From NCBI RefSeq assembly GCF_012272815.1, contig NZ_JAAWWL010000002.1, forward strand, positions 650,280 to 714,279: DNA of 64,000 nt. Direction: 5' to 3'. Of the stretch, positions 20,747 through 31,893 are shown one piece after another. Both the position numbers and the translations under genes were made by a program. The notes below the pieces were generated by a model. It worked only from the letters and a program-made list of their open reading frames with translations, ran no database searches and was not told the DNA's origin. The stretch comes from Croceivirga thetidis (GTDB taxonomy: Bacteria; Bacteroidota; Bacteroidia; Flavobacteriales; Flavobacteriaceae). The first letter of the stretch is position 1; every line of letters starts with the position of its first letter.

Positions 20747-22192
20747 ATGAATTCACATTTTGATGTGATAGTCGTTGGTGCAGGACTATCCGGAATTGGT
20801 GCTGCATATTACATTCAAGAAAAGTGTAAAAGCAAAACCTTTACCATACTTGAAGCCCGTGAAAAAATGGGAGGCACTTGGGATCTCTTCAAATACCCCG
20901 GACTTCGTTCAGATTCCGACATGTACACCTTTGGTTTTCCTTTTCACCCTTGGAAAGACCCAAAAGCCATTGCAGATGGAAAATCCATTTTGGAATACAT
21001 CAAGGATACCGCTCAAACCTTCAAAATTGACCAGAAAATTCAATATGACAGAAGGGTTACAGCTGCAGATTGGAATTCGGAAACAAAACAATGGTCGCTT
21101 GAAGTTTCATCAGCTACTTCAGACGAAATGCAAATGGTTACATGTTCCTTTTTGATGATGTGCTGTGGGTACTACAACTACAAAGAAGCCTATACCCCTG
21201 AATTTAAAGGTCTTGAGAAGTTCACTGGAAAGGTGGTTCATCCACAATTTTGGGATACAGAATTAAACTATACCGATAAAGAGATTGTAATAATTGGCAG
21301 TGGTGCTACGGCAATCACTTTAGTTCCCGAATTATCAAAAAAAGCAAAAAAAGTTACCATGTTACAACGCTCTCCCACTTACATTATGAATTTACCAAGT
21401 GAGGACATTGTAGCGAATTTTTTACGCAAAGTGATACCTAATTCTTGGGCGCACCACCTTGTTCGATGGAAGAATATTTTATTATCCATCCTAATATATT
21501 CTTGGTCACGAAAAGCTCCAAAATCATTGATTAAGCTTTTAAAAAGAGGGATTAAGAAAGCCCTAGGCAAAAAATATATTGAAAAAGACTTTACCCCAAA
21601 ATATGGCCCTTGGGACCAAAGACTGTGCCTAGTTCCAGATGCTGACTTTTTTGAAGCGATGAAAGCTGAAAAGGCACACGTCATAACCGATACCATTGCA
21701 GATTTCCATTCAAAAGGGGTTCTAACGGACTCAGGAATAAATCTTAATGCTGATATTTTGATTACTGCAACTGGATTAAAAATTCAATTGCTTGGGGGTG
21801 CCACGGTCAGTATTGATGGCAAAACGGTTAATACTGCTGAACTTCTAGCTTATCGAGGCGTCATGTTCAGTGGTGTACCAAATTTTGCAGTTGCCATTGG
21901 GTATACCAACGCTTCATGGACCCTTAAATGTGATTTAAATTGCAGGTATTTGGCCAAAGTTTTGAATTATATGGATGAAAATGGGAAATCTGTTGTAATC
22001 CCACAATTTGATGAAACTGAATTCGAAACAGAACGATTATTGGACTTTGACGCAGGATATATTCTTCGTGCAAAAGATGTCTTGCCAAAACAAGGTTCGG
22101 CTTCTCCTTGGAAAGTGCATCAAAACTATATCAAAGACTTATTGGCCTTGAATTATGGTAAAGTAAATGACCAGTATTTGGTCTACCATTAG
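20747..22192 (+). CDS. Flavin-containing (Baeyer-Villiger-type) monooxygenase
   Basis: 481 residues. An N-terminal FAD-binding Rossmann motif (VVGAGLSGIGAAY), the GGTWDLFKYPGLRSD segment, the Baeyer-Villiger fingerprint KFTGKVVHPQFWD near residue 155, and a second NADPH-binding GSGATA near 184 are in the expected order. Such enzymes use NADPH and oxygen to oxygenate ketones or heteroatoms. The substrate is unknown. The gene stands alone on the plus strand; its stop overlaps the stop of the convergent repressor gene by four bases (TTAG). Confidence 0.88.
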   Translation: MNSHFDVIVVGAGLSGIGAAYYIQEKCKSKTFTILEAREKMGGTWDLFKYPGLRSDSDMYTFGFPFHPWKDPKAIADGKSILEYIKDTAQTFKIDQKIQYDRRVTAADWNSETKQWSLEVSSATSDEMQMVTCSFLMMCCGYYNYKEAYTPEFKGLEKFTGKVVHPQFWDTELNYTDKEIVIIGSGATAITLVPELSKKAKKVTMLQRSPTYIMNLPSEDIVANFLRKVIPNSWAHHLVRWKNILLSILIYSWSRKAPKSLIKLLKRGIKKALGKKYIEKDFTPKYGPWDQRLCLVPDADFFEAMKAEKAHVITDTIADFHSKGVLTDSGINLNADILITATGLKIQLLGGATVSIDGKTVNTAELLAYRGVMFSGVPNFAVAIGYTNASWTLKCDLNCRYLAKVLNYMDENGKSVVIPQFDETEFETERLLDFDAGYILRAKDVLPKQGSASPWKVHQNYIKDLLALNYGKVNDQYLVYH

Positions 22193-22947
22193 GTCGTACC
22201 TCCTAGTTGTCTTTTTAAATCTTCCATAGATTCTTGAAGTTGTTTTAAGAGCCCATGGTTACTGGTAGGATTTAAATCAAAGGTCAATTTGCTGCTAACC
22301 TCCCAAACCTCTTGAATTTGGAATGGTTTTATATCGTAAGGGGGATAGTTTTCATTGGTAGAAACAAGTGTAATGTTATTGGAGTTTGGTCGCTTTTCAA
22401 TCTTTTTGACCATTACTGAATCTTGTAAGACCACTACGTACATTTTATTGGGACTAACGTAGTCAATATGCTCAATGGCACGAGCCATCACCCAATCACC
22501 AGGATACAAATTGGGAAGCATACTATCACCTTCGACCTGAAAGCCACGATAGGTGGCATTTCTGAATTCAGGAATTGGCAAATCAAATGCTGGCAGTTGT
22601 TCATACCAACTCGTGTCGGCAATATTTTGAGGATAGCCCGCTGCAGCCTTGGCATTGACCAAAACCATATTATCGTTTTCCTGACTATCAACAGTCACAA
22701 CTTTCGGAATGACACTGGTCTTGTTTGTATCTAAATATTTTTCATCGCTTTCACCAAAAAGCCAAAGGGGATTTATTTTAAACTGTCGTAATAATTCAGC
22801 TACTACCCTGCCCGATAATTTAGTTCGCCCCCTTTCGATATCTGCTGTGGTATTTGACACACCAATTTTTTCGGCAAACTCCGATTGGGTAAAGCCTAAA
22901 TCTCGCCGAATCTCAGAAAATCGCTTAAGTGTGAGTTCATTTTCCAT
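22189..22947 (-). CDS. LexA-like XRE/S24 transcriptional repressor
   Basis: 252 residues. Residues 6-65 form an XRE helix-turn-helix (FTQSEFAEKIGVSNTTADIERG); residues about 90-215 form an S24/LexA-like peptidase domain. The self-cleavage elements are intact: scissile Ala103-Gly104 in AKAAAGYP, Ser142 in EGDSMLPN and Lys181 in VMVKKIEK, spaced much as in LexA. It is therefore likely to cleave itself in response to RecA filaments or another signal. It is divergent from a radical SAM DNA repair module, with four dyad operators between them. The -7 box ends three bases before the ATG, so the mRNA may be leaderless. Confidence 0.88.
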   Translation of the reverse strand: MENELTLKRFSEIRRDLGFTQSEFAEKIGVSNTTADIERGRTKLSGRVVAELLRQFKINPLWLFGESDEKYLDTNKTSVIPKVVTVDSQENDNMVLVNAKAAAGYPQNIADTSWYEQLPAFDLPIPEFRNATYRGFQVEGDSMLPNLYPGDWVMARAIEHIDYVSPNKMYVVVLQDSVMVKKIEKRPNSNNITLVSTNENYPPYDIKPFQIQEVWEVSSKLTFDLNPTSNHGLLKQLQESMEDLKRQLGGTT

Positions 22948-22950
22948 ACT

Positions 22951-22980
22951 CAAATATAGGTGATTTGGATTATTTCCAAA
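22951..22980 (-). promoter_or_regulatory. Repressor gene promoter, probably leaderless
   Basis: On the minus strand TTTG (complement of 22977-22980) is followed by 18 bases and TATATTTG (complement of 22951-22958), a perfect Bacteroidota promoter. The expected transcript start falls at or next to the A of the ATG. The -33 box lies within operator dyad 1, so binding there would block the promoter. Confidence 0.75.
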
Positions 22981-23040
22981 AATAAATTTGGAATATTTCC
23001 ATATTTAGGAATTAATCCATAATTTTGGATAAAAACCAAA
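22964..23040. promoter_or_regulatory. Array of four dyad operators (TTTGGA-N5-TCCAAA)
   Basis: Four copies of one dyad lie in the gap between the repressor and the radical SAM gene: 22964-22980 TTTGGA/TCCAAA (perfect), 22987-23003 TTTGGA/TCCATA, 23005-23021 TTAGGA/TCCATA and 23024-23040 TTTGGA/ACCAAA, each with a 5-base centre. Centre-to-centre distances are 23, 18 and 19 bases, about two helix turns. Dyad 1 covers the repressor's -33 box; dyads 3 and 4 cover the -7 box of the radical SAM gene. Most simply these are operators of the divergent XRE/S24 repressor. Confidence 0.7.
23020..23027 (+). promoter_or_regulatory. -7 element of the radical SAM repair operon
   Basis: TAATTTTG fits TAnnTTTG and would start transcription about 15 bases before the TTG at 23046. 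There is no well-spaced -33 TTTG. The box lies between and partly within operator dyads 3 and 4. Confidence 0.55.
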
Positions 23041-23045
23041 TTACG

Positions 23046-24308
23046 TTGAATTTCGAACGAATAAAGGAAAAACTAAACATCTTGGCAGACGCTGCAAAAT
23101 ATGACGTTTCCTGCGCCAGTAGTGGCAGTAACAGAACCAATACCACCAAAGGTTTGGGTAACAGCACAGGCATGGGTATCTGCCATAGCTATACTGAAGA
23201 TGGGCGTTGTGTCTCCTTGTTAAAAATTCTATTGACCAACCATTGCATTTACGATTGTGCGTATTGTGTATCTAGAAGAAGTAACGATATCAAACGTGCT
23301 GGTTTTAAGATTCAAGAAGTTGTTGACTTAACCATCAATTTTTATAGAAGAAATTATATTGAGGGACTGTTCTTAAGTTCAGGCATTTTCAAAAGTCCTG
23401 ACCATACAATGGAGCGATTGGTTCGTGTCGCTAAAAAACTCCGTGAAGAAGAAAATTTTAATGGTTACATACACTTGAAATCCATTCCCGGATGTAGTGA
23501 TGAGCTAATGTATGAGGCTGGACTCTATGCAGACCGTTTATCGGTCAATATTGAAATCCCCACCGTTTCTGGCCTCAAACTATTAGCCCCCGAAAAAGAA
23601 CACAAAGATTTTACCAAGCCAATGCTCAAAGTTAAAAATGAGATTGTGCGATACAAGAATGAAAAGAGACTCATCAAGAATACCCCAAAATATGCACCCG
23701 CTGGGCAGAGCACACAAATGATTGTGGGGGCAACGGGTGAAACGGATAAAGACATTATGTATTCAGCCACCTATTATTACAAAACCTACAGTATGAAGCG
23801 GGTGTATTATTCAGGTTATGTACCTGTTCTAGAAGACAGTCGACTTCCTTCGCTCACGGCAAAAGTTCCCATGCTAAGAGAGAATCGCTTGTACCAAACA
23901 GATTGGTTGTTGCGCTTTTATGGCTTTGCTGTAAATGAATTATTAAACGATGACCACCCGAATTTAGATGTGGACGTTGACCCCAAACTTTCATGGGCCT
24001 TACGTAACCTTCATCACTTTCCTGTAGATGTCAATAAAGCAGATAAACATGTATTGGCCAGAATACCTGGACTTGGAATGCGCTCTGTTCATAAAATTAT
24101 CAATGCCAGACGCTTTCGAAAACTGAACTGGGACCACCTTAAAAAAATAGGAGTGGCCCTCAACCGTGCCAAATACTTTATGATTTGTGATTCTCGAAAT
24201 TGGGAACGTCGTGATTTGGATGCGGATAGAATTAAAGGATTGATTTTACAAAACTCCACAGGAAAGTTTCGAAATCAATATAGTCAACAGTTATCCCTTT
24301 TTAATTGA
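23046..24308 (+). CDS. Putative DNA modification/repair radical SAM protein (TIGR03916-like)
   Basis: 420 residues from the TTG at 23046. The radical SAM cluster motif CxxxCxxC (CIYDCAYC) holds Cys67, Cys71 and Cys74; the N-terminus (KYDVSCASSGSNRT) and GMGICHSYTEDGRCVSLLKIL are family signatures. A helix-hairpin-helix (HVLARIPGLGMRSVHKI) near residue 340 suggests DNA binding. Members resemble spore photoproduct lyase and are usually paired with a TIGR03915 protein and a uracil-DNA glycosylase-like protein. The open frame begins at 23025, but that TTG sits inside the promoter and an operator. It heads a probable three-gene operon. Confidence 0.85.
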   Translation: MNFERIKEKLNILADAAKYDVSCASSGSNRTNTTKGLGNSTGMGICHSYTEDGRCVSLLKILLTNHCIYDCAYCVSRRSNDIKRAGFKIQEVVDLTINFYRRNYIEGLFLSSGIFKSPDHTMERLVRVAKKLREEENFNGYIHLKSIPGCSDELMYEAGLYADRLSVNIEIPTVSGLKLLAPEKEHKDFTKPMLKVKNEIVRYKNEKRLIKNTPKYAPAGQSTQMIVGATGETDKDIMYSATYYYKTYSMKRVYYSGYVPVLEDSRLPSLTAKVPMLRENRLYQTDWLLRFYGFAVNELLNDDHPNLDVDVDPKLSWALRNLHHFPVDVNKADKHVLARIPGLGMRSVHKIINARRFRKLNWDHLKKIGVALNRAKYFMICDSRNWERRDLDADRIKGLILQNSTGKFRNQYSQQLSLFN

Positions 24309-24359
24309 ATGATATTTTAAAAGGGAGTTGAATTCAATTGGAAAATAAAAACGAGAACA

Positions 24360-24506
24360 ATGGAAACAATCATCAAAAAACAAAATTACTTAGATCGTAA
24401 ACGAGCACTAATTCTTGATATGGGGTATGATTTCGTTCGTTTTAAAAGCCGAACGAAAAAGTCTTTAGCAACCCTAAAAAGACAGATTTCTTCTTTTCAA
24501 TCTTAA
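24360..24506 (+). CDS. Small basic protein, 48 residues
   Basis: ATG at 24360 to TAA at 24506, between the radical SAM gene and the TIGR03915-like gene, 10 bases before the latter. The product begins METIIKKQNY and is basic (many Lys and Arg) with a predicted helix LDRKRALILDMG. I do not recognise the family. Its tight place in the operon and its position-fitting gap make a real gene plausible; it may be a partner of the repair proteins or a translation-coupling leader. Chance cannot be excluded at this length. Confidence 0.45.
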   Translation: METIIKKQNYLDRKRALILDMGYDFVRFKSRTKKSLATLKRQISSFQS

Positions 24507-24516
24507 ATCAACAATC

Positions 24517-25413
24517 ATGAGAAACACAAATACAATCGAAATGTCTTCTCAGGCACAACTAACCTTTCAGCAAATTAAGTCGAGAGAATTAGAAGCTAAA
24601 GATTCACGCCTCAGTTCGCCTTCGCTCGCTGCAAGTTACACGAATGAGAAAGAGGTTACTTTGATTTATGATGGTAGTTTCAATGGCTTTCTTACTGCTG
24701 TATTTATGGCCTTTGAAGAACGATTAAATATAGTTGATATTCAACGTAATGGACAAGCGCAAAATGGATTGTTTTCTGAAACCGAAACCGTCTTTACCAA
24801 TGTTGAAAAAGCCAAACGGGTTTGGAATGGTGTTCGAAAAAAAAGTTACAATGCCATTAGCAATATTTATTTCGCTTTTCTAAGCGAAACTGAAGGTGTT
24901 GAAATGTTGTGTTTTGATTACATCAAAAAACTGATGGCTTCAAAAGACAAGCAAAAGGACTATTCAGATGAAACCATGCTTTACATTGCCCAATTAGCCC
25001 GTAAAGTTGGTCGTGAAAAACATCGGATGGAGGCCTTTGTGCGTTTTCAATTGACAAAAGACAATATTTACTTCGCCAACATTGAACCAGACTTCAATGT
25101 CTTGCCTTTAATTTCAAAACATTTCCGCAAGCGCTATGCAGATCAACAATGGTTGATCTATGATGTGAAGCGACGTTACGGTATTTTTTACAATCTAGAG
25201 GGGGTTGAAATCGTGTCATTGAATTTGGATGAAATTCATTTTAACCGTACACGCAAAAGCAAAGCATTCTCTGATACCGAGTACAACTACCAAGAATTAT
25301 GGAATAATTATTTTCAAAGCACGAACATCAAATCACGTATCAATAGAAAGTTGCATACACAACATGTACCAAAGCGCTATTGGAAGTATCTATCGGAGAA
25401 AAAGGTTAGCTAG
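24517..25413 (+). CDS. DNA metabolism protein, radical SAM partner (TIGR03915-like)
   Basis: 298 residues. The family pattern is clear: LIYDGSFNGFLTAVFMAFEERL near residue 49, KKAKRVW-type segment, REKHRMEAFVRFQLTKDNIYFA near 167, and VLPLISKHFRKRYADQQWLIYDVKRRYGIFY. This domain is found in genomes next to the radical SAM protein TIGR03916 and is often fused to a uracil-DNA glycosylase-superfamily domain. Here the glycosylase part is absent and the protein ends after the conserved domain. It probably acts with the radical SAM enzyme on damaged or modified DNA; the reaction is unknown. Likely repressed by the XRE/S24 protein. Confidence 0.82.
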   Translation: MRNTNTIEMSSQAQLTFQQIKSRELEAKDSRLSSPSLAASYTNEKEVTLIYDGSFNGFLTAVFMAFEERLNIVDIQRNGQAQNGLFSETETVFTNVEKAKRVWNGVRKKSYNAISNIYFAFLSETEGVEMLCFDYIKKLMASKDKQKDYSDETMLYIAQLARKVGREKHRMEAFVRFQLTKDNIYFANIEPDFNVLPLISKHFRKRYADQQWLIYDVKRRYGIFYNLEGVEIVSLNLDEIHFNRTRKSKAFSDTEYNYQELWNNYFQSTNIKSRINRKLHTQHVPKRYWKYLSEKKVS

Positions 25414-29031: not shown

Positions 29032-31893
29032 ATGATTAACTACGAAGAAAACATCGAAGTAAAGGGTGCCCGGGTGCATAACCTAAAAAATATCGATGTT
29101 ACCATACCTCGTGAAAAATTGGTGGTTATTACCGGTCTCTCGGGCAGTGGTAAATCATCTTTGGCCTTCGATACCATATATGCAGAAGGCCAACGGCGTT
29201 ATATTGAAACCTTCTCTGCCTATGCCCGTCAATTCTTGGGAGGTCTTGAACGACCCGATGTAGATAAAATCGATGGCCTATCTCCCGTCATTGCAATTGA
29301 ACAGAAGACTACTTCAAAATCACCAAGGTCTACTGTAGGAACAATAACCGAGGTTTATGATTTTCTTCGTTTGCTATTTGCAAGGGCTGGTGATGCCTAT
29401 AGCTATGTAACTGGCCAAAAAATGGTGAGTTACAGCGATGAGCAAATCAAGCAATTGATCATTGATAGCTACCACGAAAAAAAAATCAATGTTCTAGCAC
29501 CAGTAATAAAATCAAGGAAAGGGCATTATCGCGAACTTTTTGAGCAAATTGGCAAGCAAGGATTTGTTAAGGTCAGGGTGGATGGTGAGGTACAAGACAT
29601 CGTTAAAGGAATGAAAGTCGACCGTTACAAAACCCACGATATAGAAATCGTCATCGACCGCTTAAAGGTTGGCCAAGGAGAGGATTTTGACAAACGCCTC
29701 ATGGAAACCATTAATACGGCCATGTACTCTGGTAACAATGTTTTAATGGTTCTTGAAGAAGGATCTGATGAACCTCGCTATTTTAGTCGTGATTTAATGT
29801 GCCCGACTTCAGGAATCTCCTACCCCACGCCTGAACCCAATACCTTCTCTTTCAACTCCCCGAAAGGCATGTGTCCCGATTGTAACGGTTTAGGACACGT
29901 ATATGAGGTGAACAAGGACAAGATATTCCCAAACAAAAAATTGTCCATCAAAAATGGAGGTATTGCCCCTCTAGGTGAATACAAGCGTTCATGGGCTTTC
30001 AAACAATTGGAAACCATAGGGCAACGCTACGGTTTTGATATGGAAACCCCAATTGAAAAAATACCAAAAGAGGCCATGGAAATCATCCTAAATGGCGGTA
30101 ATGAAAGCTTTACGGTGGATTCAAAAACCTTGGGGGTCAAGCGCGATTACAAAATCGATTACGAGGGTATTTCGAATTTTATCAAATCCCAGTTTGAAGA
30201 ATCGAATTCAGCTTCCATAAAAAGATGGGCCAAGGAATACATGGATAAAATTACCTGTCCAACCTGTGAAGGATCTCGTTTGCGGAAAGAATCGCTTTAT
30301 TTTAAGATTGACGGAAAGAATATCGCTGAGCTGGCCCAAATGGACATCGCAGAACTGGCCGATTTCTTTAATCAATTGGAAGGTAAACTAGAAGGCAACC
30401 AAAAGAAGATTGCAGAAGAAATAATTAAGGAAATTAAGGCTCGTATTGGTTTTCTGTTGGATGTAGGTTTGGATTACCTTTCGTTGAACCGAGGGTCCAA
30501 AACACTTTCAGGTGGTGAGGCGCAACGAATTCGTCTGGCTACCCAGATTGGCTCCCAATTGGTTGGGGTACTTTATATTTTAGACGAGCCTAGTATTGGA
30601 TTACACCAACGCGATAATGAACGCTTAATTAATTCACTATCATCATTACGCGATATCGGCAATTCCGTAATAGTTGTTGAACACGATCGTGATATGATTG
30701 AAGCCGCTGATCATGTCATTGATATTGGGCCGAAGGCAGGTAAACATGGAGGCAAAATAATTTCTGAGGGGCCACCTTCCGAATTAGTTAATTATGATAC
30801 GTTAACTGCAGATTATATCACAGGCGATAAAGAAATTGCTGTTCCGCAGAAACGTAGAAAAGGTACGGGTAAAAAAATCACCTTGACAGGCTGTACGGGT
30901 AACAATTTGAAGAATGTTTCGGTTGACTTCCCTCTAGGGAAAATGATTGGGGTAACTGGAGTATCCGGTAGTGGAAAGTCCACTTTGATTAATGAAACCC
31001 TTTACCCTATCATGAATGCCCATTATTTCAATGGGGTCAAAAAACCAATGCCCTATAAAAAAATATCTGGGCTACAGCATATAGACAAAGTAATTGACAT
31101 CAACCAATCACCTATCGGCAGAACGCCACGTTCTAATCCGGCGACATATACCGGCGTTTTTAGTGAAATACGTTCACTTTTTGCGAAAACTACCGAGGCT
31201 ACCATTCGAGGATACAAACCAGGTCGCTTCAGCTTCAATGTCGCAGGAGGTCGTTGTGAGACATGTCAAGGTGGTGGCATGAAAGTTATTGAAATGAACT
31301 TTCTACCAGATGTGTATGTACAGTGCGAGACCTGTAATGGCAAGCGTTTCAACAGAGAGACCCTCGAGATTCGGTATAAAGGGAAATCCATAGCCGACGT
31401 GCTTGAAATGACAATTAACGAAGCCGTTGACTTTTTTGAAAACATTCCAAAAATCCATCGGAAATTAAAGACTATTAAAGATGTTGGCTTGGGATATATT
31501 TCATTAGGCCAACAATCAACAACGCTTTCAGGCGGTGAAGCGCAAAGGGTAAAACTGGCAACAGAATTGTCGAAACGTGATACAGGAAATACATTCTATA
31601 TTCTTGATGAACCAACTACAGGGCTACATTTTGAAGATATTCGTGTTCTAATGGAAGTTTTAAACCAATTGGTAGACAAAGGAAATACCGTATTAATCAT
31701 AGAGCATAATCTCGATGTCATAAAAATGGTCGACCACATAATTGACATTGGCTATGAAGGCGGTCGCGGTGGTGGAATGGTTGTTGCAACCGGTACTCCG
31801 GAACAAGTTATCAAAGATGACAAGAGCTACACCGCTAAATTTTTAAAGAAAGAATTGGAACCATCAAATAAAAACATTGCAAAAGCAGTTTAA
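29032..31893 (+). CDS. uvrA: Excinuclease ABC subunit A
   Basis: 953 residues. Two ABC ATPase halves are complete: Walker [24 protein letters not shown] near residue 34 and [17 protein letters not shown] near 646; Walker [12 protein letters not shown] and [13 protein letters not shown]. Zinc-binding Cys motifs CPDCNGLG near 281, CPTCEGSR near 411 and [27 protein letters not shown] near 743 are all present. UvrA finds bulky DNA lesions and loads UvrB in nucleotide excision repair. It starts a run of plus-strand genes ending at the fused E1. Confidence 0.98.

Follow-up and report, generated by a model that had tools for sequence, protein, structure and literature searches.

In the phylum Bacteroidetes, SOS repressors that join a CI-type helix-turn-helix (HTH) to an S24 peptidase have been described as non-canonical LexA (Sanchez-Osuna et al. 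2021; PMC8565304, here and below in the sections that were consulted). They fall into two motif groups, GGA-N5-TCC, which occurs mainly in Flavobacteriaceae, and CTAA-N5-TTAG. Gel shifts of the GGA-N5-TCC motif and induction by mitomycin C are reported for Salegentibacter agarivorans (PMC8565304). The locus described here lies in another member of the Flavobacteriaceae, Croceivirga thetidis, and very probably encodes a repressor of the GGA-N5-TCC group, divergent from an SOS-controlled repair operon. All coordinates refer to the window, which is the whole stretch of 64,000 nucleotides that was analysed (assembly GCF_012272815.1, contig NZ_JAAWWL010000002.1, positions 650,280-714,279 of the forward strand).

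The targets published for the GGA-N5-TCC motif are DinB with polymerase III alpha, SplB, a COG1573-COG4277 pair, UmuDC, SRAP and a GIY-YIG exonuclease; the COG1573-COG4277 pair is described as a uracil-DNA glycosylase (UDG) base-excision system (PMC8565304). A 2013 paper on SOS components predicts, in its consulted part, that DUF4130 is a mutagenesis-related enzyme (PMC3765255).

The system itself is already published for the phylum and is not new. The repressor of C. thetidis resembles the published group in its HTH_3 and S24 domains, its Ala-Gly and Ser-Lys residues, its occurrence in Flavobacteriaceae and the lack of a canonical LexA. Its boxes likewise lie in the promoter of the repressor gene itself and before DinB/polymerase III alpha, SplB, SRAP and COG4277-type genes (PMC8565304). 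The tested S. agarivorans protein, WP_075324850.1, is likened to it on the basis of its published description (PMC8565304). A preliminary description, made from the sequence alone, had suggested a local substitute for LexA; since the system is published in S. agarivorans, the repressor belongs to a type of regulator that serves the whole family and is no peculiarity of this locus. Features that go beyond the consulted passages are the box phasing of 18 then 22/23 bp, a small open reading frame (ORF), and the retention of DUF4130 where the radical SAM gene has been lost. Unlike the published UDG pair, the partner gene here is DUF4130, without a glycosylase domain (PMC8565304).

This interpretation of the locus is well supported in silico, and from it we infer induction, cleavage, derepression and the repair role of the operon. 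The locus thereby appears as one more clear case of a Flavobacteriaceae SOS response run by a CI-like repressor.

Layout of the locus

The genes are as follows.

22189-22953, minus strand: non-canonical LexA-type repressor, CI-like HTH and S24 peptidase (PF01381 and PF00717; S24 conserved residues; predicted model)
23046-24308, plus strand: TIGR03916 radical SAM protein (TIGR03916 match; ORF listed from 23025, start set by likeness to relatives)
24360-24506, plus strand: basic small protein of 48 codons (homologues in relatives; purifying selection; no Pfam or NCBIfam match)
24517-25413, plus strand: TIGR03915/DUF4130 protein with a predicted DHH/DHHA1-like fold (family profiles; model; DUF4130 domain from residue 49)

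The radical SAM gene scores 672.2 bits for TIGR03916 (cut-off 343.5), and its translation carries the CxxxCxxC motif as CIYDCAYC; the C-terminus gives a match to HhH_3 that lies below the cut-off of that family. The last gene scores 266.6 bits for TIGR03915 (cut-off 112.25) and 175.7 bits for DUF4130 (cut-off 27). These matches bear out the arrangement first proposed from the sequence, in which the repressor is divergent from a radical SAM gene, a 48-residue ORF and a TIGR03915-like gene. COG4277 is presumably the same family as TIGR03916.

Two starts differ from the listed ORFs. The radical SAM protein likely begins at TTG 23046, judged by likeness to the MNFERIKEKL of its relatives. The repressor likely begins at ATG 22947, where its relatives start.

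The repressor

The HTH of the repressor matches PF01381 (HTH_3; E = 2.9e-8, 34.1 bits, cut-off 23) and its peptidase matches PF00717 (Peptidase_S24; E = 2.9e-13, 50 bits, cut-off 23.3), as the preliminary description had it. Like canonical LexA, the protein has an S24 domain with Ala-Gly and Ser-Lys residues, an SOS gene set and autoregulation, which is predicted here. Unlike canonical LexA, it carries HTH_3 in place of the winged HTH PF01726, to which it gives no match at E up to 1.

A search of the 3.7-Mb genome (completeness 99.99%) for S24 proteins found none besides the repressor; the same search was positive in 10 of 14 control genomes. Neither a canonical LexA nor a UmuD is therefore apparent, in agreement with the earlier suspicion that canonical LexA is lacking.

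The repressor has a match in 41 of a set of 60 family genomes. Close orthologues number 22, the C. thetidis copy included, at 43-100% identity, and a clear gap separates them from 25 weaker matches, whose identity does not exceed 36%. Across the 22 orthologues A101, A103, G104, S142, K181 and K182 are invariant (252-residue numbering). By likeness to LexA, the scissile bond would be Ala103-Gly104, and Ser142 and Lys181 (not Lys182) would be the further cleavage residues.

When the PDB was searched with sequence profiles of the repressor, all matches were HTH proteins; the S24 likeness needed a fold search. There, the S24 part of the predicted model resembles LexA, CI and UmuD, with Z up to 12.7, and the N-terminus resembles several HTH domains, including that of P22 c2 (Z 7.1).

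The operator

Four dyads lie between the two divergent genes.

22964-22980: operator box 1, TTTGGATTATTTCCAAA, exact GGA-N5-TCC (motif scan; same place boxed in relatives)
22987-23003: operator box 2, TTTGGAATATTTCCATA, also with an exact GGA-N5-TCC core and spaced 23 bp from the first (spacing conserved)
23005-23021: operator box 3, TTAGGAATTAATCCATA, again with an exact GGA-N5-TCC core and spaced 18 bp from the second (spacing conserved)
23024-23040: fourth dyad, weaker, TTTGGATAAAAACCAAA, with GGA-N5-ACC as its core; spaced 19 bp from the third box, it lies shortly before the likely start of the radical SAM gene

All four of the related dyads reported earlier are recovered by a scan for TTTGGA-N5-TCCAAA with at most two mismatches. 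Only three have exact cores, the fourth being weaker. At this tolerance dyads are only mildly enriched in the window as a whole (16 against 9.33 +/- 3.03 expected; 2 of 100 shuffles reached 16).

The array can be compared with that of many relatives. The named loci used for this purpose are the best 80 of 565 confirmed loci, with 81-94% identity to the repressor, and cover Croceivirga, Maribacter, Allomuricauda/Flagellimonas, Croceitalea and others. A genus set adds 10 other genomes; the two sets partly share genomes and consist of near relatives, and counts from them are not independent. Outside promoters, the 80 named loci contain 115 GGA-N5-TCC cores in 733,301 bp, or 0.042 per 270 bp. Because of this low background, and because the array is conserved, four dyads in 77 bp are not due to chance.

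At least two boxes are present in the 260 bp upstream of the repressor in 79 of the 80 named loci. L161 has four boxes farther out, adjoining the radical SAM gene, and one gene lies between these boxes and the repressor. A box step of 18 then 22/23 bp occurs in 78 of 80 loci, L161 among them, and the commonest spacing is 23-18-23 (34 loci). Across the family set, at least one exact GGA-N5-TCC lies within 260 bp upstream of all 22 close orthologues; those with at least three boxes mostly show spacings of 18-20 then 22-23 bp. Four family relatives (L046, L048, L052, L053) have a degenerate fourth site, [TC]TTGTA-N5-TCCAAA. Among the 25 weaker repressor matches, eight loci were examined and none has an exact GGA-N5-TCC upstream. 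The architecture is regular enough to be used in regulon annotation.

Promoter elements of the TAnnTTTG type are seen at both edges of the operator (22951-22958 and 23020-23027); this consensus is taken here to be Bacteroidota-like. Only a few bases separate the element at 22951-22958 from the ATG of the repressor, which would make the repressor mRNA nearly leaderless.

The proposed regulon in the genome

The AT-flanked exact core, WWGGAWWWWWTCCWW, occurs at 29 sites in the genome against 9 in a reversed control, and 20 of the 29 lie inside ORFs of at least 80 codons. A single-box scan at two mismatches was rejected as too lax, as it gave 718 sites where the control gave 356. Clustered boxes are found at three places only. 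These are the repressor promoter, the interval between the dinB-dnaE genes and the SRAP gene, and the region before a radical SAM gene of the PA0069 family. In the second, a box pair 19 bp apart stands between dinB and SRAP, and a DNA polymerase III alpha gene follows dinB on the same strand; in the third, a pair with the same spacing precedes the PA0069-family (SplB-like) gene. The PA0069 family is presumably covered by COG1533 (SplB), and the gene is taken as the published SplB target. All three promoters thus face SOS-type genes, as expected from the proposal of an SOS-like regulon. Two single boxes, before an 86-codon ORF and before a GDSL lipase gene, may be due to chance.

In eight relatives, the numbers of AT-flanked sites and of sites in the reversed control are 16/3, 20/19 (G001), 13/14 (G050), 10/7 (G053), 23/7, 15/7, 5/2 and 10/26 (G010). 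Because of these counts, raw box numbers alone show no regulon, whereas tandem pairs do. Six paired sites were inspected among the matches listed for relatives other than G001 and G011. Two stand at dinB (both assigned by likeness), two at a GIY-YIG exonuclease gene, one at a gene of the PA0069 family and one at a UmuD-like S24 gene.

Gene order in relatives

The divergent arrangement recurs widely. TIGR03916 is present in 13 of the 60 family genomes, nine of which have a close repressor orthologue, and in eight of these nine the two genes are divergent neighbours. The gene facing the repressor in the 22 family loci is the radical SAM gene in 8, DUF4130 directly in 6, SRAP in 1 and DinB in 1. 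In the genus set, repressor, radical SAM gene and DUF4130 keep the same divergent order in 10 of 10 genomes.

Among the 80 named loci, 66 have the radical SAM gene and DUF4130, 13 have DUF4130 alone and 1 has neither. The module starts within 450 bp of the repressor start in 77 loci (64 with both genes, 13 with DUF4130 alone), and the gene order on which the preliminary description depended is conserved to this extent. In the locus with neither gene (L236, from the same genome as L222), the radical SAM gene is found elsewhere in the genome and contains an in-frame TAG.

Proposed mechanism and alternatives

In undamaged cells, repressor dimers would occupy the three to four phased boxes that separate the two starts, and both promoters would be blocked. 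The repressor would thus shut off its own gene and the operon of TIGR03916, small protein and TIGR03915, together with the dinB-dnaE operon facing the SRAP gene and the SplB-like gene. RecA filaments on damaged DNA would then trigger self-cleavage at Ala103-Gly104 through the Ser142/Lys dyad. The boxes would empty, and repressor, radical SAM protein, small protein and DUF4130 would rise with dinB-dnaE, SRAP and splB. From its family names and company, the radical SAM/DUF4130 pair may be expected to act in DNA repair or tolerance.

Several observations weigh against this reading. No box was found at the recA start in this genome, and the only site at a second Y-family polymerase gene carries one mismatch and falls within the start of the coding region. 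Four of the eight relatives scanned (G001, G050, G053 and G010) lack a clear box excess, and six of the 22 family orthologues face no recognised repair gene. The AlphaFold model of the repressor is of low confidence, with a predicted local distance difference test (pLDDT) of 65.9 and a predicted template modelling score (pTM) of 0.41. As for recA, it is also not induced in S. agarivorans (PMC8565304).

Phage operators are phased and multi-box, as the operator here is. HTH_3 is moreover the type of phage repressors, and P22 c2 is among the proteins that the N-terminus of the model resembles. The gene could on these grounds encode a phage-derived CI repressor beside cargo genes, controlling only itself and the divergent operon, with no genome-wide SOS role. 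This is very unlikely, given the clustered boxes that also stand at dinB-dnaE/SRAP and at the PA0069-family gene. An orthologue is present in 11 of 11 genus genomes searched and in 22 of the 60 family genomes, and the same kind of protein is shown as an SOS regulator in a relative (PMC8565304).

Antirepressor proteins inactivate some XRE-S24 phage repressors, and a metabolite or antirepressor might in the same way replace RecA as the signal here, with S24 serving as a dimerisation domain only. That reading is the least probable: the Ala-Gly, Ser and Lys residues are invariant in the 22 orthologues down to 42% identity and would be unneeded for dimerisation alone, and mitomycin C induces the system in a relative (PMC8565304).

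The 48-residue protein

The non-canonical LexA reading places a small basic protein in the SOS operon. The same ORF appeared unconserved when viewed in one locus per genus; this view was rejected, as homologues are present in nearer relatives. They are found in 33 of the 80 named loci and in 8 of the 10 other genus genomes, and were not found by the same search in the other 47 named loci. The family has a core R-x(3)-L-x(2)-GY and sits upstream of DUF4130 in the loci checked. Its stop lies between 32 bp inside the DUF4130 ORF and 377 bp before its start (33 named loci). Some loci without the radical SAM gene also have it (L159, L181, L203).

Coding is supported by the pattern of substitution. 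Nonsynonymous divergence (dN) is below synonymous divergence (dS) in 42 of 42 usable pairs, with a median ratio of 0.28; 94 of the 136 pairs give no usable dS. The two alternative frames are closed in 17 of 17 and 16 of 17 sequences. Across 299 genomes of the bacterial family, a search at E up to 1e-3 gives 12 matches, 7 beside the module and 5 weak ones elsewhere. No convincing match was found in Pfam, NCBIfam, PHROGs or the PDB, and the 372-bp stretch holding the ORF has no repeat copies in this genome. Judged by this conservation, the ORF represents a real family, a conserved, unannotated basic protein of the module.

The DUF4130 protein and its radical SAM partner

A similar pairing is known from proteobacteria, where a radical SAM gene of the TIGR03916 type is followed by a gene for a protein with a DUF4130 region. 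In Phaeobacter and Azospirillum the partner adjoining the radical SAM gene is annotated UdgX, with about 470-480 residues in the proteobacterial form. In C. thetidis, in contrast, DUF4130 stands alone without a UDG domain, a form also found in Parabacteroides and Lachnospira. A search of the C. thetidis protein for a uracil-DNA glycosylase domain matched only DUF4130, at E up to 1 and up to 5. The operon thus suggests that in Flavobacteriaceae the TIGR03916/TIGR03915 module serves SOS-type repair and includes no glycosylase.

The radical SAM partner can be lost. The 13 named loci with DUF4130 and without the radical SAM gene are L159, L167, L175, L181, L182, L183, L192, L195, L198, L203, L213, L227 and L232; in all 12 of their genomes that were searched, TIGR03916 was not found anywhere in the genome. 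On the repressor tree, radical SAM presence needs 8 changes, 3 of them forced by well-supported branches.

The C-terminal tail of DUF4130 follows this pattern. Where the radical SAM gene is present (66 loci), the tail HVPKRYWKYL always scores 9 or 10 of 10; in the 13 loci without that gene, the score is 10 in 2, 8 in 2 and at most 6 in 9. Four of these nine low-tail proteins are truncated to about 200 residues. The tail thus appears to track the radical SAM partner, usually decaying after partner loss; the association is strong as raw counts, but well-supported branches provide just three independent pairs, a number that does not allow a test.

Another feature is found at the very end of the protein. 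The C-terminal residues are -AV in 60 of 79 named-locus relatives, the four truncated forms included. Of 544 other ORF-called genes of at least 150 codons in the named loci, many of them mutually orthologous, 0 end in this way. The -AV end is a possible ClpXP-type degron. The copy in the window ends in -VS.

Predicted fold of the DUF4130 protein

The best structural matches of the predicted DUF4130 model (pLDDT 81.1, pTM 0.68) are RecJ and Cdc45, members of the DHH/DHHA1 superfamily. In Foldseek, two chains of PAP phosphatase, presumably of the DHH family, come first (2.2e-4), followed by RecJ (6e-3), all with TM-scores below 0.4. In a second structural search, RecJ, Cdc45 and their kin occupy the first 30 rows, with Z 5.8-8.9 and root-mean-square deviations of 4.4-7.1; the tool itself describes Z values below about 9 as marginal, and chains from replisome entries are taken as Cdc45. 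The RecJ/Cdc45 matches span both halves of the model, and residues 163-243 next match domains of nanoRNase and family II pyrophosphatase.

Sequence comparison does not bear this picture out. Unlike RecJ and Cdc45, DUF4130 has no sequence-profile match: its profile finds no relative among solved structures at E up to 10, and none among the DHH models of Pfam and NCBIfam at E up to 5. Many members carry an N-terminal Y-D-x-[ST]-[FY]-[DEN]-G, which is taken here to resemble DHH motif I; it reads D-x-S-x-N-G in the window copy, and some other members have D-x-[ST]-x-[DE]-G. The remaining catalytic Asp/His motifs of the superfamily were not located. This first motif is not universal and is missing in members from Lachnospira, Caballeronia and Phaeobacter.

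It is possible, if unlikely, that DUF4130 is a degenerate RecJ/Cdc45-like (DHH/DHHA1) scaffold that handles DNA. HVPKRYWKYL would dock TIGR03916 at lesions, -AV would provide ClpXP turnover in many relatives, and the SOS-induced 48-residue basic protein would be a partner. After radical SAM loss the tail would decay, and the scaffold and its SOS operator would stay. This reading is held low because the TM-scores are low and the first motif is missing in distant members.

Only PMC3765255 and PMC8565304 were found in a search for literature on TIGR03916, TIGR03915, DUF4130 and COG4277 that covered few subscription papers and no preprints, and no paper was found stating what TIGR03916 and TIGR03915 do. 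None of the matches listed from the UdgX, Flavobacteriaceae LexA, and DHH/Cdc45/RecJ and radical SAM literature concerns the DUF4130 fold or the small protein. The small-ORF family, the radical SAM loss with DUF4130 tail decay, the -AV end and the RecJ/Cdc45-like fold were not found in print. The module offers three biochemical handles, namely the possible DUF4130 fold, the conserved small protein, and the tail whose state follows the presence of the radical SAM gene.

Neighbouring genes

A uvrA gene, recognised by its UvrA domains, lies 3.6 kb downstream of the operon at 29032-31893; a GGA-N5-TCC-like site was sought in its upstream region and none was found. On the other side, a flavin monooxygenase-like gene at 20747-22192 converges with the repressor gene, the two overlapping by 4 bp at the end of the repressor gene.

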